DNA from: Novipirellula galeiformis
Lineage (GTDB): Bacteria > Planctomycetota > Planctomycetia > Pirellulales > Pirellulaceae
Assembly: GCF_007860095.1 (NCBI RefSeq)
Contig: NZ_SJPT01000003.1
Span: forward strand, 517,764-581,763
Length of the DNA stretch: 64,000 nucleotides
Reading direction: 5' to 3'
Positions within the stretch are counted from its first letter, which is position 1; each line of letters opens with the position of its first letter. Both the position numbers and the translations under genes were made by a program. Below the pieces are notes generated by a model. That model did no database searches, was not told where the DNA came from, and saw nothing but the letters and a program-made list of their open reading frames with translations. This document shows, piece by piece, positions 243 through 28,873 of the stretch.

Positions 243-3200
243 ATGAGTCGCGAATTCGACTTTTACCCTCTCGAAGATCGCATCCTGCTTAGCGGCGACG
301 GCATGGATGGTCTCGATGGCTCGATGGACATTGATCTCGATCTCGAGGCGGCGTTATTGAGTCAGCTGGCCGAGGTCGATGGAGAAGCCGCTGGTGATGT
401 CGCGACGCCAACCGCACAGCCGCTGCCCACCGACCACGATGTGATCGACATTGCCACCGTCGATGTTGCCGAAGCCGAGGTTCTCGATCCCGCACTACCG
501 ATCGAAGTCGTCTTCGTCGATGCCGGTGTGGAAGATGCAGAGACGTTGATCGAGGGACTGCGGGCCGATGTGGACGGGCAAACCCAGTGGTTGATCGTGC
601 GTTTGCAGGCTGACCAAGATGGTATCCTGCAAATTACCGAGACGCTTCGCAATTTGACCAGCGTCGATGCGGTTCATTTGCTCAGCCACGGTGACGGCGA
701 GGGCATCCAGCTCGGCAATTCACGTTTGGATCTCGATGCGGCACCGAACTACGCGGGCGAGATCGCGTCGTGGGGCCATGCACTCGATAGCGATGCGGAC
801 TTGTTGATCTACGGTTGTGATCTGGCGTCGACCGAATCGGGTCGCGATCTGATCGACATCCTAGCGGTCGTCTGCGATTGTGACGTTGCGGCAAGCGATA
901 ATGCGACCGGCAATGCGGAACTCGGCGGTGATTGGATATTGGAGTATGCCGTTGGTGAAGTGAATACCGAGGTGGCGTTCGGCTTCGCCGCACAGGCGTC
1001 GTGGCAACATACGCTGGATATTTCATCGAACTTGGTCCTGCACCATCGATTCGACACTGATACCAGCGATAGCAGCGGAAACAATTACGATGGAACCCTG
1101 CAAAACGGGGCGGTGATCGACACCAACAGCGGTACCAACCAGATCGGCGATGGCAAGCTGAATCTGGATGGCAGCAACGACTACGTTGACTTCAGTCCGC
1201 ACGTGAGCAATCTACAGGGAATCACCACGGGAACGATTTCTGTCTGGGTTTATCACGACGTTAACAGTCGCGATGTCATTTTTGAGACGTCCGACAGTGG
1301 TGACGATGACTCCCGAGTTGCGATCTTTAGAGACTCCGATGGCTCCTTTGATTTTTACGTTCGCGAAGGTTCAACGACGCTGTTGGATGTCCACACCGCA
1401 GCCGGCGTGATTCCCCAGAACACTTGGACTCACGTCGCCGTGACGGTGGACGCCACTGGCAACAAATTGTACGTCAACGGCGTACAGCAATCGGTTACCT
1501 ACGCAACGGGTTCATCATCGACCAATCGTTTCTTTGATGATGTCGCAGATCTCGACTTTGGCAGCTGGGGCGTCGACAAGTACGGCGGCTCTAGTTTCAC
1601 ACGCTACTTCGATGGTTTTCTTGATGATGGGCGTGTTTATGATCGTGCCCTGAGCAGCACCGACATTTCAGAATTGTATGCCGCGACCGGTACAGGCACA
1701 TCCCTCGTCAGCTTCCAACAGGACGTGAATGGCTACACGGGCACGCAAGATACCGAGTTACGCCAGACGTCTCCGGGATCGAATTACGGTAGCTACACAA
1801 CGCTCCCCATCGACCTGCAAAACAGCGGTTCGAATACAGAATCGCAAGCGATGATTCGGTTTGACGATCTGTTTGGTACCGGTCCGGGCCAGATTCCGCT
1901 CAATGCTCAGATCGTTTCGGCTTCACTAACCGTCGAAGCGATAAGCGGATCATCGGGAACGATCAGCCTGTACCAAATGCTTGGCGACTGGAACGAATCC
2001 ACGGCCACATGGAGTTCGTACACCGATGGGCTGGATGCGGACGGCGTCGAGATGTCGTCGGTTGCCGACAGTCAGTTAACCAGCCCTTCGACTGGCTCGG
2101 TAACCTTTACGGGCCTCGAGTCCGCGGTACAGTCTTGGGCCAATGGCAATGCGAATTACGGTTGGGGCATCCTAACAAATTCGACCGACGGCTTTGATTT
2201 CTACTCCTCCGAAGGAACAACCAAACCCAAACTAAGCATCGAATACGTGATGCCGGGCTCGCAATTGTCGACTGCCCATGCACTTGTGGTCGATACGGCA
2301 AGCGACGTCTGGGATGGAGATACGACGTCGATCGATTCCTTGCTAGCCAACAAGGGTTCCGATGGAAAAATCTCGCTGCGAGAGGCGATCCTTGCTGCTA
2401 ACAGCACGCAAAACAATGGTGCAACCCCGGATCAAATCACCTTCGCCATCGACAGCGGTACCCAAACGATTCTTGTCGGTGCCGGTGGTCTTCCCATGAT
2501 TGTTGACGCCGTCAATATCGACGCGCGAACTCAACCCGGCTACACCTCGTCACCGCTGATTACGATTGACGGCAGCGGTGCAACCGGCTCCACAGGCGGA
2601 CTCGTGTTACGTACTAACGACAGCACGATCAGCGGCTTTGCCGTGATCAATTTCCCTGATGAAGGGATCGAGATCGATGGATCCACCGGCTACGGCGACA
2701 ACAACATCATCCAGTACAACTATGTTGGTTTAACGACGTCCGGGACCGCCGCAGGCAACGCCGACGACGGAATTTTGATTTCCGAAGATGCCGACGACAA
2801 TATCGTTCGTAACAACGTTGTCGGTTCCAATGGCAATGACGGTATCGTGATCCGCAATACCGACAGCGACAACAACTGGGTCTACGGCAATACGGTCGGT
2901 CTCGCTCCGAACGGAACGACGATTCGATCCAACGGTCGCTATGGTGTGTCCGTCTACGACGCGGGCACAGGCAATGTCATTGGTTCCAATGGCGACGCCA
3001 GCAACGATGCCGCCGAGCGCAACGTCATTTCGGGTAACACCAGCGACGGCATTTACTTGTACAACGCTGGCGGCACGGTAATTCGTGGGAACTACGTTGG
3101 TACCGATAGCGTTGGCACCGCGATCCGTGGCAATGCCGGTTACGGCATACTGATCAGCGACTCCTCGAGTGTCACAATCGATGCGAATGTGGTGTCAGGA

Positions 3201-18200: not shown

Positions 18201-21200
18201 CTCAGCAACGACACCGACGTCGACTCGGGCGATACAAAATCGGTGATTGGGGTCCAGCTCGGCACTGTCGGATCCGCATCCGGATCCGTCGGTGCGTCGG
18301 TCACTGGCAACTACGGCCAAATTGTGATCAACAGCGATGGCAGCTACACCTACACGATCGATCAGAATAACGCGGCGGTCCAGGCTTTGCGGACCGCGAG
18401 CGACACGCTGCAAGAAATTTACACCTATACGATGCACGACACCGCAGGTTTGGAATCCACGGCGCAAGTCACCGTGACGATCCAAGGCGCCAACGATGCT
18501 CCCGTTGCAGTGGTGGATACGGCAATCGCGTATGAAGCGGGTGGTGCGGGCAATGGCTCGGCCGGCGCCGATCCGAGCGGTAACGTTCTAACGAACGATA
18601 CCGACGTCGACAGCGGCGATACCAAAACTGTAGTGGGCGTGGCTGCAGGAGTGCAAGGGTCCGCCTCGGGATCGGTCGGATCGACTGTCACCGGATCGTA
18701 TGGCTCAATCACCCTGAATTCGGACGGCAGCTACACGTACAACGTGGACAATGACAACGCTGCGGTCCAGAACCTGCGCACCAGTGGTGAAAGTCTGAAT
18801 GATGTTTTCACTTATACATTCGAAGATACCGATGGGCTGAGTTCGACGACTCAAATCACCGTCTCGGTTCGTGGTGCGAACGATAATCCCGACGTGGTTG
18901 CCGATACGGCGATCGCGGTCGAAGCGGGTGGTACCGCAAACGGCACCGCAGGAACGAATCCGACCGGCAATGTGCTCGCTAACGATAGCGATAACGATGC
19001 CGGAGACACGATCGTCGTCAGCGGTGTGACCGCAGGCACCGCCGGATCGGCGACCGGATCGGTCGGCTCGAGTGTGGCCGGTTTGTTCGGTTCGATCAAC
19101 ATCGCTTCGAACGGCAGCTACAGCTACACCGTCGATAACAGCAACCCCACGGTCCAAGACCTGCTCAACAGCGGCGACACGCTGACCGATGTTTTCACCT
19201 ATACGGTCGAGGATCTCTCCGGTGCGACGTCGACCACTCAGGTCACGATCACGATCCAAGGTGCCAATGACGCTCCGGTTGCGACCGTCGACAGCGCCCA
19301 TGCATACGAAGCGGGCGGCGTCGCCAATGGGACGGCCGGTACTGATCCTTCCGGTAACGTGCTGACGAACGATGACCAAGTCGACGCGGGCGACACATGG
19401 TCAATCACGGGGGCCGCTCAAGGAGTCGTGGGATCGACCAGCGGGTCGGTCGGTTCATCGATCACCGGGAACTTTGGCGCGATCACGATCAATTCGGACG
19501 GCAGCTACACCTACAACATCGATAACGATAACGCGACCGTTCAGGCGCTGCGAACCGTCAGTGATACGATCACCGATGTATTTTCGTACACGGTTTCGGA
19601 CGCAGCGGGTCTGAATTCAACCGCTCAAATCACGATTACGCTGCATGGAGCAAACGATGATCCCGTCGCCGTCGTTGACCCCCCTACCGCCGTTTCGGCG
19701 GGCGGCTACGCAGGCGGCACTGCGGGGACCGATCCGACCGGCAACGTCTTGACCAACGATACCGATGTCGACTCGGGCGATACCAAAACCGTCGACGGCG
19801 TGGCGGCTGGAGTGCAAGCGTCCGCGAGCGGCTCGGTCGGATCGGCTGTCGCGGGAAGCTATGGTTCGATTTCGATCGCTGCCAATGGCGCCTACACCTA
19901 CACGGTCGATAACAACAACGCGGCGGTTCAGGCACTGCGGACCAGCAGTGATACGCTGACCGACGTCTTCACCTACACGATGATCGACGCCAGCGGGGCT
20001 GCGTCGACGACACAGGTATCGGTCACGATTCAGGGGGCGAACGACGCACCGATCGGAGTCGATGATACCGCCACGGCGATCGAAGCAGGCGGTGTCGGGA
20101 ATGCCACCGCGGGAACCAATCCGACCGGCAACGTGCTGACCAATGACACCGATCTGGATTCGGGTGACACGAAGACGGTCAGCGGCGTCGCGGCCGGTTC
20201 ACAAGTCAGTGCATCGGGATCGGTGGCTACTGGAGTGTCGGGAACGTACGGCCAGATCACCATTAATTCCGACGGATCGTACAGCTACGTCGTCGACAAC
20301 AACAACGCAACCGTTCAGGCACTGCGAACCTCGGGCGACACGTTGACCGATGTGTTCACTTACACGATGGTGGACACCGCGGGACTCGACAGCACCGCTG
20401 AAATCACGGTCACGATCCAAGGCAGCAACGACAACCCAGTAGCGACCGCCGACACTCCGACCGCGGTCGAAGCAGGCGGAATGGCCAACGGCACCGCGGG
20501 CACCGATCCAACAGGCAATGTGCTCAGCAATGATACTGACGTGGACGCGGGAGACACAAAAAACGTGGCAGGTGTCGCTGCGGGCGTCCAAGCATCCGCG
20601 TCGGGCAGTGTCGGTTCGTCGGTGACTGGATCGTACGGATCAGTGACCATCAACTCGGACGGCTCGTACACCTACGTCGTCGACAATAGCAATTCCGCGG
20701 TACAAGCCTTGCGAACGGCCAGTGATACGCTGCAAGACGTTTTCACCTACACCGTGGTCGATGCCTCAGGCGCGGATGCAACCACGCAAGTCACGATCAC
20801 GATCCAAGGCCAAAACGACACGCCGACGGCCGTCGGCGATAACGCCATCGCGGTCGAAGCAGGTGGCACGACCAATGGTACCGCGGGTACAAATCCGACC
20901 GGCAATGTGTTAACGAACGACACCGATGTCGACTCGGTTGGCAATGGCGAAACGAAAACAGTCAGTGGCGTTGCCGCTGGAGTTACTGGATCCACATCGG
21001 GTTCCGTGGCCTCATCGGTTGCCGGTTCGTATGGTGCGATCACGATCAACTCCGACGGCTCGTACAGCTACGTCGTTGACAACAATAACGCGACCGTCCA
21101 AGCACTCCGCAACAGCGGTGACACGCTCGACGACGTGTTCACCTACACGATGACCGATACGGCCGGGGCGACCTCGACCACGCAGATCACTGTCACGATC

Positions 21201-24200
21201 CAAGGCCAGAACGACGCACCGACCGCCGTTGCGGACAATTCAATCGCGGTTGAATCGGGCGGACTCGCTAACGGCACTGCGGGTACCGATCCAACGGGCA
21301 ATGTTCTGACGAACGACCTCGATCCCGATTCTGCTGGCAACGGCGAGACGAAAACGGTCACAGGAGTCGCGGTCGGCGTTGTTGGGTCGGCATCGGGTTC
21401 CGTCGCTTCCTCGGTGACTGGTTCGTATGGTGCGATCACGATCAATTCGGATGGCTCGTACGCTTACGTGGTCGACAATTCGAATGTCGACGTGCAAGCC
21501 CTTCGTAACAGCGGTCAAACGCTTGACGATGTATTTACTTACACGATGACCGACGCGGACGGAGTTGCCTCAACAACCCAAGTCACGGTCACCATCCAAG
21601 GCCAAAACGACACGCCGACAGCCGTCGTTGATAACGCGGTTGCTGTCGAAGCGGGCGGCCCCGCCAATGGAACCGCGGGAACGAACCCTACCGGCAATGT
21701 TCTAACGAACGACACCGATGTCGACTCGGTGGGCAACGGCGAAACGAAATCGGTCAGTGGTGTTGCTGCTGGAGTCGCGGGATCCGCGTCGGGATCGGTT
21801 GCATCTTCGGTTGCCGGGTCTTATGGTGCGATCACGATCAATTCCGACGGCTCGTATTCCTACGTGGTCGACAATTCGAACGCAGACGTGCAAGCACTTC
21901 GCAATAGCGGCGACACGCTCGACGATGTCTTTACTTACACGATGACCGACGCAGCCGGGGCGACCTCGACCACGCAGATCACGGTCACGATCCAAGGCCA
22001 GAACGACGCACCGACCGCCGTCGCAGATAATCTGATCGCGGTTGAATCGGGCGGACTCGCTAACGGCACCGCTGGCACCAATCCAACCGGCAATGTTCTG
22101 ACCAACGATCTCGATCCCGATTCTGCTGGCAACGGCGAGACGAAAACGGTCACAGGAGTCGCGGTCGGCGTTGTTGGGTCGGCATCGGGTTCCGTCGCTT
22201 CCTCGGTGACTGGTTCGTATGGTGCGATCACGATCAATTCGGATGGTTCGTACGCTTACGTGGTCGACAATTCGAATGTCGACGTGCAAGCCCTTCGTAA
22301 CAGCGGTCAAACGCTTGACGATGTATTTACTTACACAATGACCGACGCGGACGGGGTTGCCTCGACCACGCAAGTCACGGTCACCATCCAAGGCCAGAAC
22401 GACACGCCGACAGCCGTCGTTGATAACGCGGTTGCCGTCGAAGCAGGCGGCACCGCCAATGGAACCGCGGGAACAAATCCGACCGGCAATGTGTTAACGA
22501 ACGACACTGATGTCGACTCGGTTGGCAACGGCGAAACAAAAACAGTCAGTGGCGTTGCTGCTGGGGTGACCGGATCCGCATCCGGTTCGGTCGCGTCTTC
22601 GGTTACGGGTTCTTATGGTGCGATCACGATCAATTCCGACGGATCGTACAGCTACGTCGTTGACAACAATAACGCGGACGTCCAGGCACTTCGCAATAGT
22701 GGCGATACGCTGGACGATGTGTTTACCTACACAATGACGGATACGGCCGGTGCGACCTCGACCACACAAATCACGGTAACGATTCAAGGCCAGAACGACG
22801 CACCGACGGCGGTGGTTGATAATGCGATCGCAGTCGAATCAGGCGGTTTGGCCAACAGCACGGCAGGTACAAATCCGACCGGCAATGTGCTCACGAACGA
22901 TAGCGATGTCGACTCGGTTGGCAATGGTGAAACGAAATCGGTCAGTGGCGTTGCAGCCGGGGTGACCGGTTCGGCATCCGGTTCGGTGGCATCTTCGGTT
23001 GCCGGTTCCTACGGTGCGATCACGATCAATGCCGACGGATCGTACATCTACGCCGTCGATAACAATAACGTCGACGTGCAAGCACTTCGCAACAGCGGCG
23101 ACACGCTCGACGACGTGTTTACCTATACGATGACGGATGCGGACGGAGCGACCTCCACCACACAAATCACCGTCACGATCCAAGGCCAAAACGACACACC
23201 AACCGCCGTGGTCGACAACGACATTGCAGTTGAAGCAGGCGGTTCGGCTAACGGAACCGCTGGTACAAATCCGACTGGCAACGTGCTAACGAACGACACT
23301 GATGTCGACTCGGTTGGCAATGGCGAAACGAAAGCAGTCAGTGGCGTTGCCGCTGGAGTCACGGGATCGGCGTCGGGATCGGTCGCATCGTCAGTTGCCG
23401 GTTCGTACGGTGCGATCACGATCAACAGTGATGGATCGTACAGCTACGTTGTTGACAACAATAACGCAGACGTCCAGGCACTTCGCAACAGCGGCGATAC
23501 ACTGGATGATGTCTTCACCTACACGATGACCGATACGGCCGGGACAACCTCGACCACACAGATCACGGTCACGATTCAAGGCCAGAACGACGCACCGACG
23601 GCGGTGGTTGATAATGCGATCGCAGTCGAATCAGGCGGTTTGGCCAACGGTGCGGCAGGTACAAATCCGACCGGTAATGTGTTAACGAACGACACCGATG
23701 TCGACTCCGTTGGCAATGGCGAAACGAAATCGGTCAGTGGCGTTGCCGCTGGAGTCACCGGTTCGGCATCCGGTTCGGTGGCGTCTTCGGTCGCTGGTTC
23801 CTACGGTGCGATCACGATCAATGCCGACGGGTCGTATTCCTACGCCGTCGACAATAACAACGTCGACGTGCAAGCACTTCGTGACAGCGGCGACACGCTC
23901 GACGACGTGTTTACCTATACGATGACGGATGCGGACGGAGCGACCTCCACCACACAAATCACGGTCACGATCCAAGGCCAAAACGACACCCCCACGGCCG
24001 TGGTCGATAATGCCATTGCAGTTGAAGCGGGCGGCACTGCCAACGGAACCGCTGGTACAAATCCGACTGGAAATGTTTTAACGAACGACACTGATGTCGA
24101 CTCCGTGGGCAACGGCGAAACCAAGACGGTCAGCGGTGTGGTTGCGGGAACGACCGCCAGTGCCACGGGTTCGGTCGGAGCAAATGTCTCAGGTTCTTAC

Positions 24201-25979
24201 GGCGCGATCACGATTAACTCCGACGGTTCGTACAGCTACGTCGTTGACAATAACAACGCGGCGGTGGAAGCATTGCGAACCGCATCGGACACGCTGACAG
24301 ACGTATTCACCTACACGATGGTCGATGCGTCGGGGGCCGAGTCCACGGAGCAAGTGACCATCACGATCCAGGGCCAAAACGACGCGCCGCATGACATGAC
24401 CGCGACGGGGATGACGATCGACGAAGGACTCGCCAACGGCCAGATCGTGGGCACCGTCTCGACCGACGACATCGACACCAGCGACACCACGTTGTATTCG
24501 TTGACCGATTCGGCAGGCGGCCGATTCAACATTGATGCGTCGGGCAACATCCTTGTGGCTGATTCGAGTCAACTCGATTACGAAGCCGCCACTCAGCACG
24601 ACATCACGGTGCGTGTGCAAGACGCTGCCGGGGCCACGTATGACGAAACGTTTACCGTCTATTTGAACGATGTCAACGAATTCAATGTTGCCGCGGCTAC
24701 CGACACCGATGGCAATCCAAATCAAGTCAATGAAAACGCAGCGTTTGGAACGACGGTCGGTATCACCGCATTGGCGGTCGACCCCGACGGCACCTCTAAT
24801 AGCGTGACCTACTCGTTGTCCGATGACGCGGGAGGACGATTCACGATCGATTCGGCCAGCGGAGTGGTGACCGTTTCAGGGTCCGTGGATTACGAGACTA
24901 ACACCAGTCATACGATTACGGTTCGAGCCGACTCGAGCGACGGTTCGTTCAGCTTTGCTAATTTCTCGATCGCAGTGATCGACGTCAACGAAGCTCCCGT
25001 GGCAACCGGCGACCACTACTCGATCAACGCCGGAGAAACGCTCTCGTTGGCGGCTCCGGGTGTGTTGATCAACGACAGTGATGTCGATGGCGACCCGCTG
25101 CAGTTGCAACTCGTCTCGGGACCTAGCCACGGAGTGCTCAGCATCTCGGCCAACGGAAGTCTGGTCTACACGCCCAGCGGTGCCTACTTTGGCAGCGATA
25201 CGTTTACCTACCTCGCCAGCGACGGCAGTTTGAATAGCGATGTCGTGACAGTCACGATCACCGTGATTGCTGGCGGCGGCGGAAGTGGAGGCTCCAGTGG
25301 AAGCGGCTCGGGCGATGGCGGCTCGGGCGATGGGGGCTCAGGCGATGGCGGCGGCGACACCAGCGGCGGAGGAGATACATCCGGTGGCAATTCCGGAGAC
25401 GGAGATAGCGGCGATGGTGGATCAAACACCACCGGCGGAGTCACCACGGTACCGACTTATGTAACCCCTCCTACACAAACGGACACGTCGGCGAACGAAA
25501 AAGAACACGCTCCACGGAGCACTTTTTCAGACTCGGATCGTAATTCGACAATTCAACTCGGAGACAGCGAACACGAAGAATCGCAAAACGGTTCGGAGCG
25601 TCACGGCTTTACGTGGGGCGGTTCCTCGAACATGCACTTAAAACGGGGCATCACCCAGATGTCTCATATGCTCGACGAGTTATTGATCGTCGATTTGGTT
25701 CAAGCGATTCAATGGACCGAATGGAACAATCAGAGCTCCGCCGCAGCGGAAGACTCGACCTATTTCGGAGCCGGCGAAATTGGCGGACTGGGCGTAGGTG
25801 CGGGGCTGGCGTCGGTCGGTTACGTGCTGTGGGCACTCCGAGGCGGCGTGTTGTTGACCACCATTTTCGGCAGCATGCCTGCGTGGCGAATGATCGATCC
25901 CACCGCCCTGTTAACCGCATACCGCGATGGAGATGGGATTCGTAAATCCAAAGCCGATGTGACAACGTTCTTGGATTAA
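243..25979 (+). CDS. Giant secreted multi-repeat surface protein (LEPR-XLL / DUF4347 / CSLREA / VCBS / cadherin)
   Basis: About 8,578 residues, acidic and rich in Gly, Ser, Thr, Asn and Asp; the only cysteines I noticed are in the DUF4347 domain. Order: LEPR-XLL-like motif (7-18, FYPLEDRILLSG), DUF4347 (about 86-243), LamG-like (264-483), DNRLRE-like (489-668), CSLREA plus beta-helix (680-1637), cadherin-like (1796-1952), seven delta-60 repeats (1975-2340), cadherin (2639-2745), seven propeller-like repeats (2760-3139), Calx-beta-like (3141-3240), cadherin (3378-3484), second CSLREA plus beta-helix (3483-4663), 22 VCBS units (4777-4905 and 5317-8050), two cadherins (8050-8257), an Ig/tandem-95-like domain, a Gly/Ser linker (8343-8400) and a hydrophobic segment near 8515-8549. 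TTG at 234 is in frame, but ATG 243 is preferred. No Shine-Dalgarno is visible. Probable role is adhesion or matrix formation at the cell surface; the ligand is unknown. Confidence is high for one intact gene, moderate for function. Confidence 0.93.
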   Translation: MSREFDFYPLEDRILLSGDGMDGLDGSMDIDLDLEAALLSQLAEVDGEAAGDVATPTAQPLPTDHDVIDIATVDVAEAEVLDPALPIEVVFVDAGVEDAETLIEGLRADVDGQTQWLIVRLQADQDGILQITETLRNLTSVDAVHLLSHGDGEGIQLGNSRLDLDAAPNYAGEIASWGHALDSDADLLIYGCDLASTESGRDLIDILAVVCDCDVAASDNATGNAELGGDWILEYAVGEVNTEVAFGFAAQASWQHTLDISSNLVLHHRFDTDTSDSSGNNYDGTLQNGAVIDTNSGTNQIGDGKLNLDGSNDYVDFSPHVSNLQGITTGTISVWVYHDVNSRDVIFETSDSGDDDSRVAIFRDSDGSFDFYVREGSTTLLDVHTAAGVIPQNTWTHVAVTVDATGNKLYVNGVQQSVTYATGSSSTNRFFDDVADLDFGSWGVDKYGGSSFTRYFDGFLDDGRVYDRALSSTDISELYAATGTGTSLVSFQQDVNGYTGTQDTELRQTSPGSNYGSYTTLPIDLQNSGSNTESQAMIRFDDLFGTGPGQIPLNAQIVSASLTVEAISGSSGTISLYQMLGDWNESTATWSSYTDGLDADGVEMSSVADSQLTSPSTGSVTFTGLESAVQSWANGNANYGWGILTNSTDGFDFYSSEGTTKPKLSIEYVMPGSQLSTAHALVVDTASDVWDGDTTSIDSLLANKGSDGKISLREAILAANSTQNNGATPDQITFAIDSGTQTILVGAGGLPMIVDAVNIDARTQPGYTSSPLITIDGSGATGSTGGLVLRTNDSTISGFAVINFPDEGIEIDGSTGYGDNNIIQYNYVGLTTSGTAAGNADDGILISEDADDNIVRNNVVGSNGNDGIVIRNTDSDNNWVYGNTVGLAPNGTTIRSNGRYGVSVYDAGTGNVIGSNGDASNDAAERNVISGNTSDGIYLYNAGGTVIRGNYVGTDSVGTAIRGNAGYGILISDSSSVTIDANVVSGNSLAGISLWETGTTLATVTSNYIGTNAAGTSALGNSNDGIKIGGGASNNTIGGDRTLGLGNVISGNSGATSDGIELSGSAGSTNDNKIYGNYIGTDVTGTAAIANGRHGIVVYSGAQNTLIGGTGTGQGNIISGNTTYGIIVDGNSGTTTTGTVIAANYIGLNLAGTTAIANGGGIVVFGGARSTTIGGTTAAHRNLISGNDGLGINITGATTETTTVAGNYIGLGADGTTIVANTSHGVSINSGSDNNTIGGITAASRNIISGNDGFGIYLGSGSNSNQILSNYVGTDAAGAVAKANLDGIWIEGANNTIGQTGAGNLISGNAYYGLTLDGVGANNNTVQNNYIGTNATGTGPVANGADGVSIVNGAHDNLIGGTLATQRNIISGNAGDGIQISGLTSNANTIQGNYIGTDVTGSADLGNAGNGIYATGGDNLVVDGNLVSGNGGYGIYLSSTGVTNATVTGNTIGLNAAGTASLLNGNHAIYLNSTSNAMIGGTTVDERNVINSVGGSYGIYVLGTTDTSIIGNYIGTDALGTTRLSAGSFAIYVYSSANTIIGGTTTTHANVIGGYSVTGVNIYGAASAGTQIQGNFIGTDVGETLDLTNGLYGVVLQGSAAGILIGGSGTTSGNAIANNSTNGIRVLSSAGAGNSFLRNRIFNNGAIGIDLDGDGVTNNDADDVDGGVNNGQNFPVITQAVLDGTNLTISGTIDTDGPLNTKYHIEFYGNASGTQDTTHGEGRYYLGTTTVTVDGSGDGTFSEFLLTGVALSAGDFVTATATRIDDAGQVGLDDQLAYGDTSEFGANFAIAPLNSDPVVTFGSGNITYAENAGAVFIDATATVTDADGTDFDGGVLSISITANGSGDDRIRINNEGMAAGLVGVTTGPNQVYYGGVLIGTWSGSGAPLAITFNASADATAVQAVVQNITFENNSDVPSGLTRTVEFQLTDGDGGSSTAITKDIDVTPVNDAPTFGSDGDGSTTVPIPGSLFDLGFNSVVQADGKIVMVGAAYFADNDITVVRFNADGTLDLTFGGGDGIATLDAGGDEIGVDVALQADGRIVVAGTRDGDLIVARFTATGVLDTSFDSDGYAITDVSGIDTASGIAIQSDGKIVVLGNSDAGGNNFSVVRYNTDGSLDTTFSGDGKVEIDFGASSDDVANSILIQSDGKIVVAGKSNNQFAIARLTSGGVLDTSFDTDGLVSTDFGVGDETISGLAQQSDGKIIAAGTANLDFALARYNTDGSLDSTFDGDGLQTSDLGATERAYSVAYTSTGKIVVSGVTDLMGSNDVMLQRYNADGSLDTSFNTVGTVITVTNTTNEYAYSVQVFANGSISVAGNMQSNGFLLNQYNEDGSLDTNFAPTANLVDANPTYVEGSAPIVLDASVSVFDRELSAQDNFTESTIALLRRAGVNGEDVFGFSDGNGLSVSAGSLYKNGQIIASFSLTTPGLVVVTFTDANGETPTQTDVNNVLRQLTYANNSDAPPASVELLWYFLDGNTGEQGLGTSLFITSVTTVNITATNDDPTNAGSLPSDITVTEDVSGNVDLSQINLSDVDEGGGDLTVKLATSTGGNLSAISGGGVTIGGSGTGTLTLTGTLADLNTYLDTASNIQYLHSTPDQAGDDADTITVYVNDNGNTGTGGGSDVNLGSVNVDITNVNDAPVITSDGGGDTANVNVNENSTAVTTVTASDVDLPSQTLTFSKSGGADAALFTIDGSTGALTFISAPDYENPTDVGGDNTYEVIIQVTDGTLTDTQTITVTVTDVADGIQVTPIDVSPIGGETRVNTTTGDNQSINAGVAQAIATDANGNYIVVWSSNDQDGDLYGTYGQRFDAEGQALGVEFQINTTSTDQQFSPTVAMDAAGNFVVTWMSNLQDGDGYGVYAQRYNAAGVAQGGEFLVNTTTSASQTSPAIAMAADGSFAITWTDSVHDPDGSIGIYAQRFDASGVAVGGEFRVNSYTTGVQQITSIAMDDAGNFVIVWASNGQDGSNYGVYAQRFDSAGVAQDSEFRVNTTTTDAQLYHDVSMLSDGRFVVAYQSRSGSDFEVYIQRYAADGTPVGGETQVNTVTVSGVQPIPSISADDAGNITVVWNSTADGDGTAVIGQRMDWSGTKLGGEFIVNSTSSGNQTYPEVVAQPGGRFIVAWGGNGDGDADGVFMQRYGLTTTEAGGTATFEIVLESQPSADVTIPVMVSDGSEGSVSVGSVTFTSLDWNIPQTVTVTGLQDYVNDGDQSYTIVLGTATSSDANFNGLDPEDLVVLNAEVPNTAPTNTVPGDQTTGEDTPLVFSSGNANAITISDADAGGNELEVTLTATNGTISLATLSGLTFSNGDGTSDATATFTGTLSAINAALNGLSFTPTADFSGAATLSIATNDQGNTGTGGARSDTDVVNISVTAVNDSSPVITSDGGGDTANINVDENTTAVTIVTATDADLPSQTLTYSIFGGADAAKFNINSADGTLIFVAAPDFESPADVGGDNVYDVIVRVSDGTFTDDQAIAVTVVDVSNVLVVTTATDNNDSGILVGASYDIEWLNANKGTDGEISLREAIIAANNTAGMDTVSFNIAGAGVHTIGLLSVLPSITEAITIDGYTQSGSSINTATNGSNVVLQIELDGTNTGAGASGLKLVAGSDGSTIRGLAINRFSGSGVEINNSDNNTIVGNFLGTSVDGTSGQSNVYGVNVTNGANNNTIGGSAAGDRNVISGNTTAGVFISSSDNIVAGNVVGLNAAGNAAIANTRGVYLLNAANTLIGGTTAGAGNVISGNSIDGVLVTGATSAGTRIEGNYIGTNAAGDAGIANLIKGVGLTTNATGVTVGGSAAGAGNVISGNSNTGVYIASGGNLVTGNFVGLNAAGTAAVANGTGVYIYHAANNTIGGTSASERNVISGNTSNGVYISGSGSTGNIVQGNYIGTNAAGDAAVANTATGVSIAASATNNTIGGSVTGTGNVISGNSTYGVYVNASNNTVAGNTIGLNAAGTAAIANNYGIHLLNAANNVIGGTTTEARNVISGNTVDGVYVSGATSTGNSIQGNFIGTNAAGTSAISNGRFGISLINNASANTIGGAVSGAGNVISGNVSSGVYVSASNNTLVGNTVGLNATGTAAIANYSGIHINNVSGTTIGGTTALARNVISGNTSDGVFITGASATGNLVQGNYIGTNTAGTSGIANINAGINIQSNASGNTIGGAVAGAGNVISGNQSMGVYVAAPNNTLSGNIVGLNAAGDAKVANAGFGIYVTSAGVGTSIGGTTSLQRNVVSGNGADGIVVDGGGSSSAMNVMIQGNYVGTNLAGTAGLSNSRHGVYFYNAAATNTLGGTVSGAGNVISGNASYGVLVEGTSNLVAGNTIGLDAAGTAAIANSTGVYINNVGSTTIGGTTALARNVISGNTNDGIYITGVSATGNLVQGNYIGTNAAGTAAVGNGNAGINITSTAAGNTIGGTAAGAGNLISGNANYGVYTAASNTTIQGNFIGTDASGTGAIANGADNSATGGIYIAGGSGSTIGGTSTSARNVISGNGGAGIWINAGGDTTTIQGNYIGVDVTGDTALGNGRWGVVNQSGDNVQIGGTAAGAGNVISGSTNSSGGVFIGPTADGTVIEGNRIGIGATTTSALSSVQVVGIWLASGSTNTRIGGTTAPAGNIIAGNGVSGGIKVVGTSTGNTIQRNSIYGNLGIGIDLNDDGTTTNDGAKTGGAANLLMDSPVVGTANLVSNDLLLAGYVGSAANQATFANSRVEFFISDESSAYGSGQTFLGFLTTDASGNFSGTLDVTGLGLTQSSSITATATDSSGNTSEFGVNFAVNVAPTAVTDNLTAVEAGGVGNATAGTDPTGNVLTNDTDPDSGDSQTVIGVAAGTVGSASGNVGSNVTGSFGTLQIDSNGAYVYTVDNSNAAVQALRNSGDTLTDVFTYTMNDSGGMESTTQVTITIEGANDAPEAADLTKTINEDTPLTLAAADFGFTDVDSSDSMIAVRVDVLPAAGTLNLTGSGPVTAGQVITIADINAGKLIFTPAANDNGAGYASIAFSVADASNTFDGSPNTITIDVAAVNDAPELDNSETFTLTGITEDQTNNSGDTVASIIASLSGNRISDVDASPSEGIAIQSISGGNGTWQYSLDGSTWTDVGTVNTTTSLLLRSSDYLRYVPDAMNADTSSVSFVAWDQTTGTEGTKVSTATTGGTTAFSDNVGLAEVTVTAVNDAPTITDSATVTLSGTNEDTPSTPTSVDSIVSSAGWADVDTGAVKGIAVTGLTGNGTWQYSTDGSNWTSFSGISGSTALLLNASTQIRYQPDSLNGETATFDFVAWDTTTGSASSFGSPSYADPDSGGGTTAYSSETATASIVVTDVNDAVVAVADTDTATEAGGVANATAGSNPSGNVLSNDIEYDTGDTLNVTGVAAGTVASAAGNVGTSVTGTYGDISIASNGAYTYTVDNNNAIVQALRTSGQTITDTFTYTVQDSGGSFASTQIVITIEGQNDAPVAVTDNAVAIEAGGDNNASAGTNPTGNVLTNDTDVDSGDTKTVTGVVVGTAGSASGNVASALAGNYGSITINANGSYIYNVDNNNAAVQALRTSSDTLQDVFTYTMQDTDGSSSTTQVTVTIQGQNDDPVAVDDTAVAVEAGGTSNGTAGINPSGNVLGNDTDVDSGDTKTVVGVAAGSQSVASGSVATGVNGSYGSIQIAGDGSYTYTVDNSNAAVQALRTSGQSLSEIFTYTIQDASGADSTAEITVTITGANDAPDAVANAATATEASGILNNISGTNPSGNVLTNDTDVDAGDTKTVTGVATGVQGSTSGNVGSTVVGTYGSLVINSNGTYTYTLDNDNAAVEALNDGDSLSETFSYTMQDTAGLASTTQLVITIDGRTDQPVAVADMDTSEEAGGVGNATPGSNPSGNVLDNDVSGNGKTIVGVAAGSTGSASGNVGTTVTGTYGTVVINSDGTYTYTLDNSNPAVEALLNSGDHVTDIFTYTMEDTFSNMSSTELTITVDGQNDAPESVNDTSIAVESGGVANGTAGSSATGNVLSNDTDVDSGDTKSVIGVQLGTVGSASGSVGASVTGNYGQIVINSDGSYTYTIDQNNAAVQALRTASDTLQEIYTYTMHDTAGLESTAQVTVTIQGANDAPVAVVDTAIAYEAGGAGNGSAGADPSGNVLTNDTDVDSGDTKTVVGVAAGVQGSASGSVGSTVTGSYGSITLNSDGSYTYNVDNDNAAVQNLRTSGESLNDVFTYTFEDTDGLSSTTQITVSVRGANDNPDVVADTAIAVEAGGTANGTAGTNPTGNVLANDSDNDAGDTIVVSGVTAGTAGSATGSVGSSVAGLFGSINIASNGSYSYTVDNSNPTVQDLLNSGDTLTDVFTYTVEDLSGATSTTQVTITIQGANDAPVATVDSAHAYEAGGVANGTAGTDPSGNVLTNDDQVDAGDTWSITGAAQGVVGSTSGSVGSSITGNFGAITINSDGSYTYNIDNDNATVQALRTVSDTITDVFSYTVSDAAGLNSTAQITITLHGANDDPVAVVDPPTAVSAGGYAGGTAGTDPTGNVLTNDTDVDSGDTKTVDGVAAGVQASASGSVGSAVAGSYGSISIAANGAYTYTVDNNNAAVQALRTSSDTLTDVFTYTMIDASGAASTTQVSVTIQGANDAPIGVDDTATAIEAGGVGNATAGTNPTGNVLTNDTDLDSGDTKTVSGVAAGSQVSASGSVATGVSGTYGQITINSDGSYSYVVDNNNATVQALRTSGDTLTDVFTYTMVDTAGLDSTAEITVTIQGSNDNPVATADTPTAVEAGGMANGTAGTDPTGNVLSNDTDVDAGDTKNVAGVAAGVQASASGSVGSSVTGSYGSVTINSDGSYTYVVDNSNSAVQALRTASDTLQDVFTYTVVDASGADATTQVTITIQGQNDTPTAVGDNAIAVEAGGTTNGTAGTNPTGNVLTNDTDVDSVGNGETKTVSGVAAGVTGSTSGSVASSVAGSYGAITINSDGSYSYVVDNNNATVQALRNSGDTLDDVFTYTMTDTAGATSTTQITVTIQGQNDAPTAVADNSIAVESGGLANGTAGTDPTGNVLTNDLDPDSAGNGETKTVTGVAVGVVGSASGSVASSVTGSYGAITINSDGSYAYVVDNSNVDVQALRNSGQTLDDVFTYTMTDADGVASTTQVTVTIQGQNDTPTAVVDNAVAVEAGGPANGTAGTNPTGNVLTNDTDVDSVGNGETKSVSGVAAGVAGSASGSVASSVAGSYGAITINSDGSYSYVVDNSNADVQALRNSGDTLDDVFTYTMTDAAGATSTTQITVTIQGQNDAPTAVADNLIAVESGGLANGTAGTNPTGNVLTNDLDPDSAGNGETKTVTGVAVGVVGSASGSVASSVTGSYGAITINSDGSYAYVVDNSNVDVQALRNSGQTLDDVFTYTMTDADGVASTTQVTVTIQGQNDTPTAVVDNAVAVEAGGTANGTAGTNPTGNVLTNDTDVDSVGNGETKTVSGVAAGVTGSASGSVASSVTGSYGAITINSDGSYSYVVDNNNADVQALRNSGDTLDDVFTYTMTDTAGATSTTQITVTIQGQNDAPTAVVDNAIAVESGGLANSTAGTNPTGNVLTNDSDVDSVGNGETKSVSGVAAGVTGSASGSVASSVAGSYGAITINADGSYIYAVDNNNVDVQALRNSGDTLDDVFTYTMTDADGATSTTQITVTIQGQNDTPTAVVDNDIAVEAGGSANGTAGTNPTGNVLTNDTDVDSVGNGETKAVSGVAAGVTGSASGSVASSVAGSYGAITINSDGSYSYVVDNNNADVQALRNSGDTLDDVFTYTMTDTAGTTSTTQITVTIQGQNDAPTAVVDNAIAVESGGLANGAAGTNPTGNVLTNDTDVDSVGNGETKSVSGVAAGVTGSASGSVASSVAGSYGAITINADGSYSYAVDNNNVDVQALRDSGDTLDDVFTYTMTDADGATSTTQITVTIQGQNDTPTAVVDNAIAVEAGGTANGTAGTNPTGNVLTNDTDVDSVGNGETKTVSGVVAGTTASATGSVGANVSGSYGAITINSDGSYSYVVDNNNAAVEALRTASDTLTDVFTYTMVDASGAESTEQVTITIQGQNDAPHDMTATGMTIDEGLANGQIVGTVSTDDIDTSDTTLYSLTDSAGGRFNIDASGNILVADSSQLDYEAATQHDITVRVQDAAGATYDETFTVYLNDVNEFNVAAATDTDGNPNQVNENAAFGTTVGITALAVDPDGTSNSVTYSLSDDAGGRFTIDSASGVVTVSGSVDYETNTSHTITVRADSSDGSFSFANFSIAVIDVNEAPVATGDHYSINAGETLSLAAPGVLINDSDVDGDPLQLQLVSGPSHGVLSISANGSLVYTPSGAYFGSDTFTYLASDGSLNSDVVTVTITVIAGGGGSGGSSGSGSGDGGSGDGGSGDGGGDTSGGGDTSGGNSGDGDSGDGGSNTTGGVTTVPTYVTPPTQTDTSANEKEHAPRSTFSDSDRNSTIQLGDSEHEESQNGSERHGFTWGGSSNMHLKRGITQMSHMLDELLIVDLVQAIQWTEWNNQSSAAAEDSTYFGAGEIGGLGVGAGLASVGYVLWALRGGVLLTTIFGSMPAWRMIDPTALLTAYRDGDGIRKSKADVTTFLD
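499..970 (+). other. DUF4347 domain with His-Cys dyad-like motifs
   Basis: Residues about 86-243 of the giant protein match the DUF4347 pattern: an opening beta strand (VVFVDAGVED), a His-Gly motif in HLLSHGDGEG (His149), a Cys motif in LLIYGCDLAS (Cys192), then a closing GGDW-LEY stretch. The His-Gly followed about 43 residues later by a Cys after a hydrophobic strand is the arrangement of clan CD cysteine peptidases (caspase, gingipain, CHAT, MARTX CPD). Catalysis is inference; what is visible is the conserved pair. The domain sits just after the export motif, where self-processing or cleavage of a partner would be plausible. Confidence 0.8.
2280..5280 (+). repeat. CSLREA module and first right-handed beta-helix array
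   Basis: Residues about 680-721 carry a CSLREA-type segment ending in ISLREAILAANS. It is followed by dozens of degenerate beta-helix coils in which phrases like NYIGTN, GTAAIANG, IGGT and NVISGN recur every 45 to 65 residues. The array closes with the usual capping stretch (FLRNRIFNNGAIGIDLDGDG). These folds often bind or cleave polysaccharide; I see no obvious catalytic cluster, so a structural or binding role is more likely. Confidence 0.8.
6165..7260 (+). repeat. Seven delta-60 repeats inside the giant protein
   Basis: Seven units of about 50 residues each contain a QSDGKIVVAG-type strand, then RYNTDGSLDTTF and a D-G-D turn. This is the signature of the delta-60 repeat family, first described in delta-proteobacteria and thought to form propeller-like folds. 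The last two units are more diverged (ANGSISVAG in the seventh). Seven is the typical blade number for a closed beta-propeller, so this block probably folds as one unit. Confidence 0.75.
8520..9660 (+). repeat. Seven propeller-like repeats (xQRFDAxG / GGEFxVN type)
   Basis: Seven successive units of about 54 residues each hold an AMDAAGNFVVTW-type strand, a YGVYAQRFD strand and a VGGEFRVNT strand. The seven Q-R-[FYM] positions are TYGQRFD, VYAQRYN, IYAQRFD, VYAQRFD, VYIQRYA, VIGQRMD and VFMQRYG. The layout predicts a seven-bladed propeller. It is distinct in sequence from the delta-60 block upstream. I do not know a family name for it. Confidence 0.6.
10691..14240 (+). repeat. Second CSLREA module and second beta-helix array
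   Basis: The CSLREA-type segment recurs (ISLREAIIAANN at about 10800-10840), followed by a longer and more regular beta-helix than the first. Coils repeat NVISGN, GNYIGTNAAG and TIGGT. At the DNA level some parts are close copies: the stretch around 12536-12660 recurs around 13286-13410, with the same words at a 750-base offset. The block ends with the same capping element as the first array, so the whole CSLREA/helix cassette was duplicated within the gene. Confidence 0.8.
14572..24392 (+). repeat. VCBS repeat array (22 units), last nine homogenised at 396 bp
   Basis: One VCBS unit (14572-14958) is followed by three unrelated cadherin-like or Ig-like segments (to about 16195), then 21 VCBS units in tandem. 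Each has an EAGG or ESGG start, the motif GNVLTNDTDVDSGD, a YGxITINSDGSYxYVVDN core, an ALRxSxDTLxDVFTYT strand and an NDAP end. Units of 387 bp give way at 20829 to nine units of exactly 396 bp (starts 20829, 21225, 21621, 22017, 22413, 22809, 23205, 23601, 23997) that carry a three-residue insertion reading DSVGNGETK or DSAGNGETK. Acidic D-x-D-x-G-D turns suggest calcium binding. Confidence 0.92.
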
Positions 25980-26395
25980 GTGAATTCGGAGCACACGGCT
26001 CCATTGATCTCAACGGCCTAAGAAACTCTGGGATCGGAATGGCACAACGGGCACGCGTCCTTGCTCAACGCGCGTAGGCTGGCGTCGAGGCGATTTGATT
26101 CCGAAACGTCAGCGAGAACAGAAGCAGCGAGATGGGTTGAACGACATCCGACAGTGGTATCCTAGAATGGCCTCATCGGCGTAACCGTCAATATCGATCA
26201 ACTCAACCCTACTTTTCTCACCGTCCAGGGCAATCGAACTGAATTAGCATTGGAACGTTTAGCTGTGATCAAGAATTGAGCGTATTCTCTGACCCAAACC
26301 GAGGCGATGGGCCCGTCGATTGTTAGACCGAACGACCAGGACTCGATCAAGCGTCTCCGTTTCACTTTGTCAATTTCAAACAGAAATCTACCGGC
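25980..26395. other. Spacer between the giant gene and the GGDEF gene
   Basis: No convincing gene in these 416 bases. A weak five-base-pair inverted repeat (GGAGC/GCTCC at about 25988-26002) follows the giant gene's stop and lacks a T-run, so any terminator is weak. Promoter elements for the downstream gene could not be assigned with confidence. Confidence 0.5.
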
Positions 26396-28873
26396 TTGTT
26401 ACGTGAGTTCATCGCATCGCTAAGACTTGCCTTTGCACTAGTGTGCGTCGGCGTTAGTCTGATCCTCGGCGGCCAATGGCTGGGTTTGATCCCAGACATG
26501 GATGCGATGGAGATGCGCACTCGGCAACGATACTGTGAAGCGATCGCAATCAATGCCTCCGCGCATGTCCGTCGCCAACAATGGGTGGACCTGACGACGA
26601 TTCTGAAGACGCAAGTCGAACGCAACGACGAAATTCTATCGATCGGACTGCGAAGCGATTTAGGGACCTTACGTCTGGATACCGGTCATCATCAAGAGAT
26701 GTGGTCCGATCTGACTCAACACGAGTCGGGTGAGGAAGCTCGTCTAGTCGAGGCCATCAGCGTGCCGATCACGCTGAATCGTCGTCCGTGGGGGAGCGTC
26801 GAATTTTGTTTCCGCAAACCCGCTTCCTCCGCCTGGGCTCCTTTTACTCGCCATGCCGTCTTTCGGCTGATTGGCTTCTTCGTGATTGCGGGGCTCGCCT
26901 CCTACACGTTGTTTGTCGCCAAGATCATGGGCGTGTTCCGCAAAACACAGGTGGTCCCCGATCGCGTTCGCCAAGCGCTCGACACACTCGCCGAAGGGCT
27001 ACTGGTTCTAGACGAACAGGGAAAGATTGTACTTGCCAACCGCGCCTTCACCGACACGATCGGCATCCCGCTTGAAGAGCTGGTGAAGAAGTCGGCGAGC
27101 GGGTTGTCATGGACGTTACCGCACAACCAAGAATTATCGCCTTCGGACGATGCGACCTACCCTTGGACCGCAGCGATTGCCAAAACGGAGCTTCAGTCCG
27201 AACGCATGCTTCACTACCGCTTGGCCGATGGACGCAACCGCATCTTCTCGGTCAATGCCGCACCGCTCGGGAGTGACGATCAACAGCGAGGGGCGTTGGC
27301 GACGTTCCGAGATGTGACTCACGTGGAAGAACATCGCGAAGAGTTGGAGAAGATGCTGGGCATGTTGCGTAGCAGCCGCGATGAAATTGAGCGTAAAAAC
27401 AGCGAACTTGAAATCCTGGCGACCCAGGACGCGTTGACAGGCTGTTTGAATCGCCGCGCATTTTTCGAGCGTTTTGATGCGTTTTGGCGAACCGCCCAAA
27501 CCAACAACACGCCGCTTTCATGCGTGATGATCGACAATGACCATTTCAAGAACGTCAACGATACTTACGGCCACCATATTGGTGACGAAGTGCTTCGCCG
27601 CGTTTCGCAGATCATTCGCGACATGCACCAAGACCACGGGTTGGTTTGTCGCTATGGTGGCGAAGAATTCTGTGTCGTCTTCCCCGACTTGACGCTCAAA
27701 CAAGCCCTCGATGAGGCCGAAAAGACTCGTGCTGCCATTGCGGCAATCCAGTTTGAAGAACCGGCCGAATTAAAGCTCACGGCAAGTCTCGGGGTTTCCG
27801 AATTGCGATTCAATCCTGCCGACCCTCAGGAATTGATCAATCAAGCTGATGCGTGTCTCTACGTTGCCAAACGCGAAGGCCGTAATCGGGTGATCGCTTA
27901 CAACGTCAACATGGCCGATCAAGCGGAGCAGGACCAAAACACCGTCGCCAAACCGCAACGTTTAGATATTTCTTATCAGGCGGTCACTGCTTTAATGTCC
28001 GCATTATCGTATCGGGATGCCAAAACGGCCGAGCACAGCCGTCGGGTTGCCGACTTGTGCTCTCGAGCCTCCGCGCAAATCCTCGACCCCGCACAAATCT
28101 ATGTGCTGGAGATTGCCGCATTACTCCATGACATCGGTAAAGTCGGCGTGCCCGACAATGTCTTGCTCAAACCTGGCATGTTGACCGAACAAGAGTGGGA
28201 GGTCATGAGACGTCATGATCGCATCGGCGTCGAGATTGTCTCCAGCACCTTCTCGTGTGATGAATTGACCTCCATTATCGCCGCCCACCAATGGATTCGC
28301 TTGGAAGGCCAACGCTCAGGATCGGTTCCGCCATTGAACGCCGACGAAAACGGGCAAGTCATGTGGTGCGCCAAAATGTTGACCATTGCCGATAGTTACG
28401 ACGCGATGATCTCGGACACCGTCTACCGACAAGGATGCTCGCATGATGACGCGATTGCGGAACTACGCCGTTGTGCGGGAACGCAATTTGACCCTGAACT
28501 TGTCGAGCACTTTACCAGAGCGATTGACGAGACTGCGTTGGCGGTAACCCTAGGCGCATTCGCTGTTGGCAAGCAAGCGGCAATCCAAATCGGCATCAAT
28601 GTGGAGCGTTTGGCCGAGGCGCTCACCCAAAAGGATCTGAAGGCGCTTCAAGAGCATGCCGCCCAACTCGCCGTCACTGCAAATCATTGCGGACTCGAGT
28701 CGGTTACCGCTGCGGCCAACCAAATTTGTGAGATCACTTATTCGGAGAACCTCCAATGGGCGATGCTGCTTCGCGACACGAACGAGCTGTTGGACACCGC
28801 ACGCTCGGCACAAGCCGACTTCCTTCGCGACGCACTGGAACTCGAAAACTCACTTAGCTTCGAGTCCTCTTAG
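26396..28873 (+). CDS. Membrane diguanylate cyclase with PAS, GGDEF and degenerate HD-GYP domains
   Basis: 825 residues from a TTG start; this is the only start before the first membrane segment, because an in-frame stop lies at 26324. Layout: TM1 (about 5-30), an extracytoplasmic sensor region (31-150), TM2 (152-180), PAS (195-310), a coiled linker (310-345), GGDEF (345-505), HD domain (525-720) and a helical Hpt-like tail (735-810). The cyclase motif is intact (GGEEF at 421-425, metal-site IDNDHFK). The inhibitory RxxD site is replaced by QDHG. The HD half keeps LLHDIGK (His578) and the later TIADSYDAM, but the HHE...GYP signature reads AHQ...GSVPP, so phosphodiesterase activity is doubtful. 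The tail resembles Hpt helices without the phospho-accepting His. It probably makes c-di-GMP in response to a periplasmic cue. It lies 416 bp downstream of the giant gene, same strand. Confidence 0.9.
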   Translation: MLREFIASLRLAFALVCVGVSLILGGQWLGLIPDMDAMEMRTRQRYCEAIAINASAHVRRQQWVDLTTILKTQVERNDEILSIGLRSDLGTLRLDTGHHQEMWSDLTQHESGEEARLVEAISVPITLNRRPWGSVEFCFRKPASSAWAPFTRHAVFRLIGFFVIAGLASYTLFVAKIMGVFRKTQVVPDRVRQALDTLAEGLLVLDEQGKIVLANRAFTDTIGIPLEELVKKSASGLSWTLPHNQELSPSDDATYPWTAAIAKTELQSERMLHYRLADGRNRIFSVNAAPLGSDDQQRGALATFRDVTHVEEHREELEKMLGMLRSSRDEIERKNSELEILATQDALTGCLNRRAFFERFDAFWRTAQTNNTPLSCVMIDNDHFKNVNDTYGHHIGDEVLRRVSQIIRDMHQDHGLVCRYGGEEFCVVFPDLTLKQALDEAEKTRAAIAAIQFEEPAELKLTASLGVSELRFNPADPQELINQADACLYVAKREGRNRVIAYNVNMADQAEQDQNTVAKPQRLDISYQAVTALMSALSYRDAKTAEHSRRVADLCSRASAQILDPAQIYVLEIAALLHDIGKVGVPDNVLLKPGMLTEQEWEVMRRHDRIGVEIVSSTFSCDELTSIIAAHQWIRLEGQRSGSVPPLNADENGQVMWCAKMLTIADSYDAMISDTVYRQGCSHDDAIAELRRCAGTQFDPELVEHFTRAIDETALAVTLGAFAVGKQAAIQIGINVERLAEALTQKDLKALQEHAAQLAVTANHCGLESVTAAANQICEITYSENLQWAMLLRDTNELLDTARSAQADFLRDALELENSLSFESS

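Follow-up and report, generated by a model that had tools for sequence, protein, structure and literature searches.

The window is a stretch of 64,000 nucleotides of the Novipirellula galeiformis genome, and it opens ~150 bp past the end of a giant gene. That gene (G2), a further giant upstream of it (G1) and the giant inside the window (G3) stand in tandem (Table 1). The first 260 residues of G3 agree to 81.5% with G2, and its last 260 agree to 92.2% with G2 and to 89.6% with G1. In the list of open reading frames G3 starts at a TTG codon (234-25979, 8581 aa); the frame from the ATG at 243 is intact, with its end as the sole stop. An earlier note on this DNA, made from the sequence alone, had described a repeat protein of about 8,580 residues with an N-terminal His-Cys domain and, 416 bp downstream on the same strand, a membrane sensor with GGDEF and degenerate HD-GYP domains. 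Both descriptions were borne out: the protein has 8,578 residues and a DUF4347 domain with His149 and Cys192, and the sensor has transmembrane segments and matches to PAS, GGDEF and HD_5. A block divergent from G1, here called the exporter block, encodes OEP, two HlyD proteins and a 747-aa M50 protease fused to HlyD. The genes 3' of the sensor (FtsK, CorC-like, short-chain dehydrogenase, HflX-like, UvrC-like and methyltransferase) look unrelated to the giant system. A gene 23 kb upstream of G1 (G000:C3:451293-452417) is transglutaminase-like by eye; PF06035 (LapG) had no match in this genome.

G3 is composed, in order, of a LEPR-8K leader, DUF4347, regions of beta-helix, DUF5122 propeller and cadherin, a long array of VCBS, Cadherin_4 and Big_9 repeats and a hydrophobic C-terminus. 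The NF012209 match to its leader is above the cut-off and places G3 among the LEPR-XLL giant proteins. The Pfam scan covered the giant, and the NCBIfam scan covered residues 1-319 and the second half. Two further Pfam matches, YfjS_YafY and PDZ_2, are weak and have no stretch of their own, and a simple pattern search found no RTX repeats. Cysteine occurs in G3 at positions 192, 211 and 213 only. The conserved C-terminal motif (CTERM) of G3 is moderately hydrophobic, with a KD value of 1.5; the family median is 1.68, and 25 of 42 members reach at least 1.6.

Table 1. Features of the giant locus. Positions are those of the window unless contig coordinates are given.
Feature	Position	Strand	Remarks
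G1 giant	G000:C3:475614-497567, upstream of window		7,317 aa; two DUF4347 domains
G2 giant	G000:C3:497962-517614, upstream of window		6,550 aa; start at C3:497962
G3 giant gene	243..25979	+	8,578 aa; last of three giants in tandem
LEPR-XLL (LEPR-8K) leader motif of G3	267..320	+	aa 9-26; NF012209 19.8 bits, cut-off 17
DUF4347 (PF14252) of G3, probable C80-like cysteine protease domain	507..1016	+	aa 89-258, E 2.3e-51
His149, candidate catalytic residue of G3	687..689	+	in HLLSHG; kept in 86/89 DUF4347 domains
Cys192, candidate catalytic residue of G3	816..818	+	in IYGCDLA; kept in 86/89 DUF4347 domains
VCBS / Cadherin_4 / Big_9 repeats of G3	14580..24270 (limits approximate)	+	22 NPTGNVL-like units
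CTERM, conserved hydrophobic C-terminal motif of G3, GYVLWALRGG...MPAWRMIDPTALL	25785..25925	+	= G000:C3:543548-543688; alignment A5
Membrane sensor gene	26396..28873	+	825 aa; TTG start; 416 bp past G3 stop
SENS_N: TM - periplasmic domain - TM	26420..26926	+	profile E 1.5e-54; alignment A4; hydrophobic segments
PAS domain of sensor	26963..27316	+	aa 190-307
GGDEF domain of sensor, GGEEF intact	27419..27889	+	E 7e-43; no RxxD inhibition site by eye
Degenerate HD-GYP domain of sensor (HD_5)	27992..28501	+	E 7.9e-16; HDIGK kept, HHE and GYP lost
C-terminal segment of sensor, HPt-like by eye	28541..28870	+	phmmer matches only in GGDEF+HD sensors

The match of G3 to PF14252 is full-length (profile positions 1-164). 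The His and the Cys were each kept in 86 of the 89 DUF4347 domains aligned, in the His-then-Cys order of the C80-like proteases, which we take to belong to clan CD. The exceptions are the first copies of tandem pairs in loci L020 and L036, which have neither residue, the domain of L086, which has no Cys, and that of L079, which has no His. In the first DUF4347 domain of G1, Ser replaces Cys; degenerate first copies elsewhere are those of L020 (Phe) and of L036 and L086 (Ser). Two more DUF4347 genes in the same genome (G000:C4:422032-422523 and C4:248192-248680) have no sensor or CTERM match nearby.

The top PDB match of DUF4347 was 9qpe_G, a weak match (E 0.008) with an alignment that spans both motifs; the matches after it look unrelated. 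PDB 9qpe is Tce1/PA0256, a DUF4347 protein from a study of the type VI secretion system (T6SS), an extract of which terms it a putative cysteine protease and aligns its His186 and Cys240 with the protease dyad of TcdB (PMC13323088). Peptidase_C80 was the commonest second Pfam family among DUF4347 members scanned singly (8/56; best E 0.0024, a weak match). Taken together, the conserved His and Cys, the Tce1 match and the Peptidase_C80 matches indicate that DUF4347 is probably a C80-like cysteine protease, and it is in this predicted form that the earlier note's protease-like domain fused to the giant is retained. The domain has in common with Peptidase C80, the clan CD autoprocessing domains and Tce1 (9QPE), as far as the extract describes the last, the His-then-Cys motif and weak sequence matches; it differs in its N-terminal position in giant repeat proteins, and its activity is a prediction. 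Assignment of DUF4347 to CHAT by profile comparison was set aside, as the hhalign result was not significant.

The surroundings of DUF4347 were compared in the best 80 of 376 DUF4347 places in named genomes, a choice by which the locus set leans to the query's close relatives. These best 80 of 376 span Planctomycetes, Gamma-, Alpha- and Deltaproteobacteria, Campylobacterota and Cyanobacteria and hold 84 plus-strand DUF4347 ORFs, 52 of which run off their locus. In 83/83 ORFs of this set DUF4347 begins no later than residue 388 of the open frame, and in 75 of the 83 a wide LEPR pattern precedes it (1% in shuffles); the core of this pattern ends in S-A or S-G in 65 of the 75 matches. The eight misses are five cyanobacterial ORFs (L042, L054, L056 and, twice, L077) and L021, L038 and L094, where a LEPR-like stretch is visible by eye. 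The cyanobacterial ORFs have no leader, no CTERM in the three that end within their locus and no matched exporter gene, which implies that DUF4347 serves outside the giant system too. The gene set described below gives DUF4347 a likely role, probably the processing of the giant itself. A strict LEPR pattern was rejected as a predictor of the M50 exporter (24 ORFs with M50 and 19 without it where the pattern was present, 7 and 6 where it was absent).

The exporter block combines a fusion of a PqqD-like domain, an M50 protease and HlyD with two HlyD adaptors and an outer-membrane channel (OEP). The M50 protein at the window's locus has the motifs HEAGH and NPLLRLDGY. In 31 of the 80 loci (best 80 of 376) the M50 fusion stands with both HlyD types; these loci come from Planctomycetes, Gamma- and Deltaproteobacteria and Campylobacterota. 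Matches to the OEP gene were confined to planctomycete loci (11). Among 56 DUF4347 ORFs whose locus extends 7 kb or more upstream, 25 have no M50 gene in it. The iterated exporter profiles cross-match through their common HlyD parts and so were left out of the exporter counts. The H, E and H of the M50 motif are kept in 36, 34 and 34 of 39 rows, some of which are adaptor ORFs. PF05402 matched the PqqD-like N-terminus of the fusion at E ≤ 0.1 in 11/23 members (best 5.7e-7), and the top three PDB matches of this N-terminus are PQQ-D proteins (E 0.0012-0.017); the window's own member gave no PqqD match as a single sequence. PqqD-like domains bind leader peptides in RiPP pathways, which suggests that the PqqD-like part may read the LEPR leader. 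M50 homologues are present in 59 of 60 genomes (the window's own and 59 relatives), so the M50 family is not giant-specific. The 11 top-scoring M50 places all lie near DUF4347, CTERM or sensor matches.

Some of these blocks also hold a gene for a SecA-like ATPase. In L027 and L031 it sits between the M50 fusion and the second adaptor (L027:6456-8525, L031:6798-8876), and with the L027 gene as query it was found in 22 loci, with the Walker motif in 21 of them. Of the 42 loci in which the M50 fusion and the second adaptor are both present, 19 have it; the other 23 show none in view, and none was found in the 132 kb around the window's locus. The genome itself has a canonical SecA and a short SecA, the latter on contig C5. 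In the relatives at least 32 of the 88 places with a short SecA are no more than 10 kb from an M50 gene, against 0.85 expected; this is a lower bound based on the 150 M50 places among the matches listed. Short SecA genes occur throughout the order and thus are not giant-specific. Their presence in exporter blocks and near M50 genes makes a SecA-like motor a plausible energy source for the exporter.

The N-terminus of the sensor (SENS_N) is common to giant-linked sensors with differing outputs. In the window's sensor the GG(D/E)EF motif of diguanylate cyclases is present as GGEEF; of the HD-GYP phosphodiesterase motifs, HD is kept and HHE and GYP are gone. By eye, the segment at 28541-28870 resembles an HPt domain that has lost its His; Pfam Hpt had no match there at E 0.1. 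Kinase-type sensors of the family have Pfam Hpt domains at their end (L025, L062), which, with the HPt-like segment, hints at common ancestry.

Sensor ORFs outside the window (n = 42) comprise 19 of the kinase type (one gene twice), 11 with GGDEF, 11 with GGDEF+HD and 1 that is cut off; L130 and L132, sorted as GGDEF, also match the window's HD domain, so that 9 and 13 are nearer the truth. GGEEF was found in 23/23 GGDEF-type sensors, the window's own included. Where more than 1 kb is visible downstream of a kinase-type sensor, 9 of 11 loci hold a response regulator with HD_5, GGDEF-EAL or GGDEF-HD_5. In L025 and L058 the c-di-GMP response regulator is located on the giant's far side, and the kinase-type loci L123 and L131 hold none. 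The GGDEF sensors and the c-di-GMP response regulators beside kinase sensors point to c-di-GMP as the common output, and a periplasmic domain common to enzymes and kinases fits outside-in signalling.

Linkage of giant and sensor was assessed across the 60 genomes. PF14252 was matched in 24 of them; the SENS_N profile (A4) gave 41 matches in 20 genomes, merged to 39 genes, and the CTERM profile (A5) 39 places in 18 genomes. Twenty-four of the 39 sensor genes, including the one in the window, lie 75-615 bp 3' of a CTERM on the same strand, where random placement predicts 0.009, and a chance neighbourhood was rejected on these numbers. The pairing that the earlier note saw at a single locus is thus conserved in relatives. 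The remaining 15 sensors have no CTERM directly upstream; of the 10 such genes fetched, 7 adjoin exporter genes and 3 (L130, L131, L134) have none nearby. The genomes with sensors and those with DUF4347 overlap (17/20; Fisher p 6e-7).

Among the best 80 of 376 loci, 24 DUF4347 ORFs end within the locus with a CTERM, and they are followed by a sensor in 16 cases, by another DUF4347 giant in 3 and by neither in 5 (L024, L026, L037, L051, L055). A sensor follows 0 of the 8 ORFs of this set that end in their locus without a CTERM; some of these are probably broken genes: L059, for instance, has its CTERM in a later ORF that is followed by a sensor. The giant/sensor pair recurs in Gamma- and Deltaproteobacteria. 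Across 30 pairs measured (one gene counted twice, as L117 and L118), the sensor's ATG overlaps the giant's stop by 4 bp in 9 (8 planctomycete, 1 Amphritea), and most other sensors start within some 60 bp of it; the window's own pair has a gap of 416 bp and no overlap.

In three loci (L119, L120, L125) a GGDEF sensor accompanies a CTERM protein whose open frame, 959-1,063 codons long, shows no match to DUF4347; the sensor is therefore not tied to the protease domain. A giant piece without DUF4347 in genome G016 (L116) was excluded from these cases, its gene order looking broken. Judged by gene order, the firmest partners of the sensor are CTERM and the exporter rather than the protease domain. 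For the CTERM proteins without DUF4347 (L119:10539-15379, L120:9741-14306, L125:7142-11684), adjoining exporter genes were unmatched.

We read the locus as one copy of a multi-phylum system that exports and monitors giant, adhesin-like surface proteins, and on sequence comparison we give this reading a probability of about 0.6. Clusters related to it are found in distant bacteria, which suggests a widespread and uncharacterised system by which giants are made and monitored. The LEPR-type leader and the hydrophobic CTERM would mark the cargo, and an envelope machine (two HlyD adaptors, the PqqD-like/M50/HlyD fusion, the planctomycete OEP and often the short SecA-like ATPase) would export or anchor it. 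DUF4347, a probable C80-like cysteine protease near the leader, would probably process the giant that carries it. The adjacent and often operon-coupled sensor would detect, in the periplasm, what state the exporter or the C-terminal anchor is in. It would set c-di-GMP by means of its own GGDEF domain; in other lineages a histidine kinase together with a c-di-GMP response regulator would do this. Sequence comparison shows the components, how they are conserved and how they are linked; cargo recognition, self-processing, the route and motor of export and the way the signal runs are inferred. More tentatively, the system may constitute an undescribed export pathway in which the PqqD-like domain on the fusion of intramembrane (M50) protease and HlyD reads the LEPR leader, a short SecA-like ATPase that could be encoded in the locus or elsewhere drives export, CTERM holds the giant, the giant's own C80-like domain cuts at or near the leader and a cognate periplasmic sensor reports occupancy of cargo or exporter as c-di-GMP. 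A search of openly licensed full-text literature, by title and start of abstract and with terms for parts other than SecA, returned no description of the gene set.

The LapA/LapD/LapG system of Pseudomonas comprises a giant repeat adhesin, a cysteine protease and a c-di-GMP protein with a periplasmic domain, and the present locus likewise combines a giant repeat protein, a cysteine-protease-like domain and a c-di-GMP protein with a periplasmic domain. The earlier note had proposed a Lap-like functional unit of this kind, in which signalling would run inside-out: c-di-GMP made or sensed by the downstream protein would control release of the giant through its built-in protease. The conserved pairing of giant and c-di-GMP protein, the fusion of the protease-like domain to the giant and the degenerate HD domain, which could act as a c-di-GMP receptor, are all in keeping with this proposal. 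Nevertheless, we consider it unlikely. LapG (PF06035) was matched in 0/60 genomes, the window's own included, by a profile that matched its positive control in Caulobacter, and LapG-based release of the giant is thus unsupported. The LapD periplasmic domain (PF16448) was matched in 0/20 genomes by a profile for which no control matched either; no PDB match to it was found, and the families listed for 20 sensor N-termini do not include it. Whereas LapD is a degenerate GGDEF-EAL receptor, the window's sensor has HD instead of EAL, and with its GGEEF intact it is not a receptor of the LapD type. The protease here is of another type and fused to the giant, and the sensor also stands beside CTERM proteins without DUF4347. 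Given no LapG match in the 60 genomes, an intact GGDEF motif and sister sensors of the histidine-kinase type, mostly with c-di-GMP response regulators nearby, the signal more likely runs outside-in, from the periplasm to c-di-GMP. What stands of the earlier proposal is the conserved unit of giant and c-di-GMP protein, with c-di-GMP enzymes as a common output; a Lap-type circuit as such is not supported and, judged by the features tested, this is no variant of Lap.

It is quite improbable that giant, exporter and sensor are co-regulated neighbours of an attachment locus that make no direct contact, with the sensor detecting an environmental cue and DUF4347 serving as a processing or cargo domain. 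Sensors commonly swap output domains, and single SENS_N members weakly match generic families (sCache_4, E 9.5e-5; CHASE8, E 0.095; 1 of 20 each), as this explanation would have it. However, SENS_N itself, beyond the output alone, is concentrated at CTERM and exporter loci, the stop of the giant and the start of the sensor overlap in several pairs, and the window's own genome has one sensor N-terminus match and three CTERM. A further alternative to an adhesin would be a contact weapon whose effector part is DUF4347, in the manner of Tce1, which the extract of its study presents as a T6SS-associated protein containing DUF4347 (PMC13323088). This is very hard to reconcile with the start of DUF4347 near the front of all 83 ORFs (best 80 of 376 loci) and with the Pfam matches of G3, which, DUF4347, YfjS_YafY and PDZ_2 apart, are of beta-helix, propeller, cadherin and Ig-type repeats.

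Export and monitoring of a giant surface protein is our preferred reading of the locus. How proteins of 5,000-9,000 residues are exported and controlled in bacteria, especially in planctomycetes, is to our knowledge a largely open question. The question becomes testable with a recurring gene set that is also present in isolates, Marinobacter and Gilvimarinus among them. The gene set names a candidate exporter, built on the M50/HlyD fusion and often including a SecA-like ATPase. It also suggests c-di-GMP as the means by which cells report the status of adhesin or exporter.

Several known systems resemble parts of this set. Like the array of G3, BapP of Pseudoalteromonas tunicata, a marine biofilm adhesin, has Big_9/cadherin-like repeats; in contrast, an extract of its description gives it a predicted Sec signal and ABC-type neighbours and describes no LEPR, DUF4347 or M50 exporter (PMC12153261). 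The OEP channel and HlyD adaptors recall type I secretion (T1SS) and tripartite efflux, with the difference that the PqqD-like/M50/HlyD fusion, often with the SecA-like ATPase, replaces the ABC, RND or MFS protein. Specifically, of the ABC, MFP and OMP genes that make up a T1SS block, MFP and OEP were found and ABC was missing; in this respect the block (OEP, two HlyD, M50/HlyD fusion) differs from the ABC-type T1SS of Lap. A search for an ABC-type T1SS exporter in the surroundings of the window's locus found an MlaE-type ABC protein 5 kb beyond the exporter block and an ABC ATPase with a BPD_transp_2 permease 9-12 kb beyond it, neither of which looks like a T1SS exporter. In accessory SecA export systems an extra SecA is encoded with large surface-protein cargo, and an extra short SecA-like ATPase is similarly found beside large surface proteins in the 19 of 42 related exporter loci. 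In contrast to those systems, the SecA-like protein here is joined to the M50/HlyD fusion, HlyD adaptors and OEP, and none is encoded beside the window's giants. Across the order, short SecA genes are often found near M50/HlyD genes, a hint of a broader SecA-like/M50 export unit.
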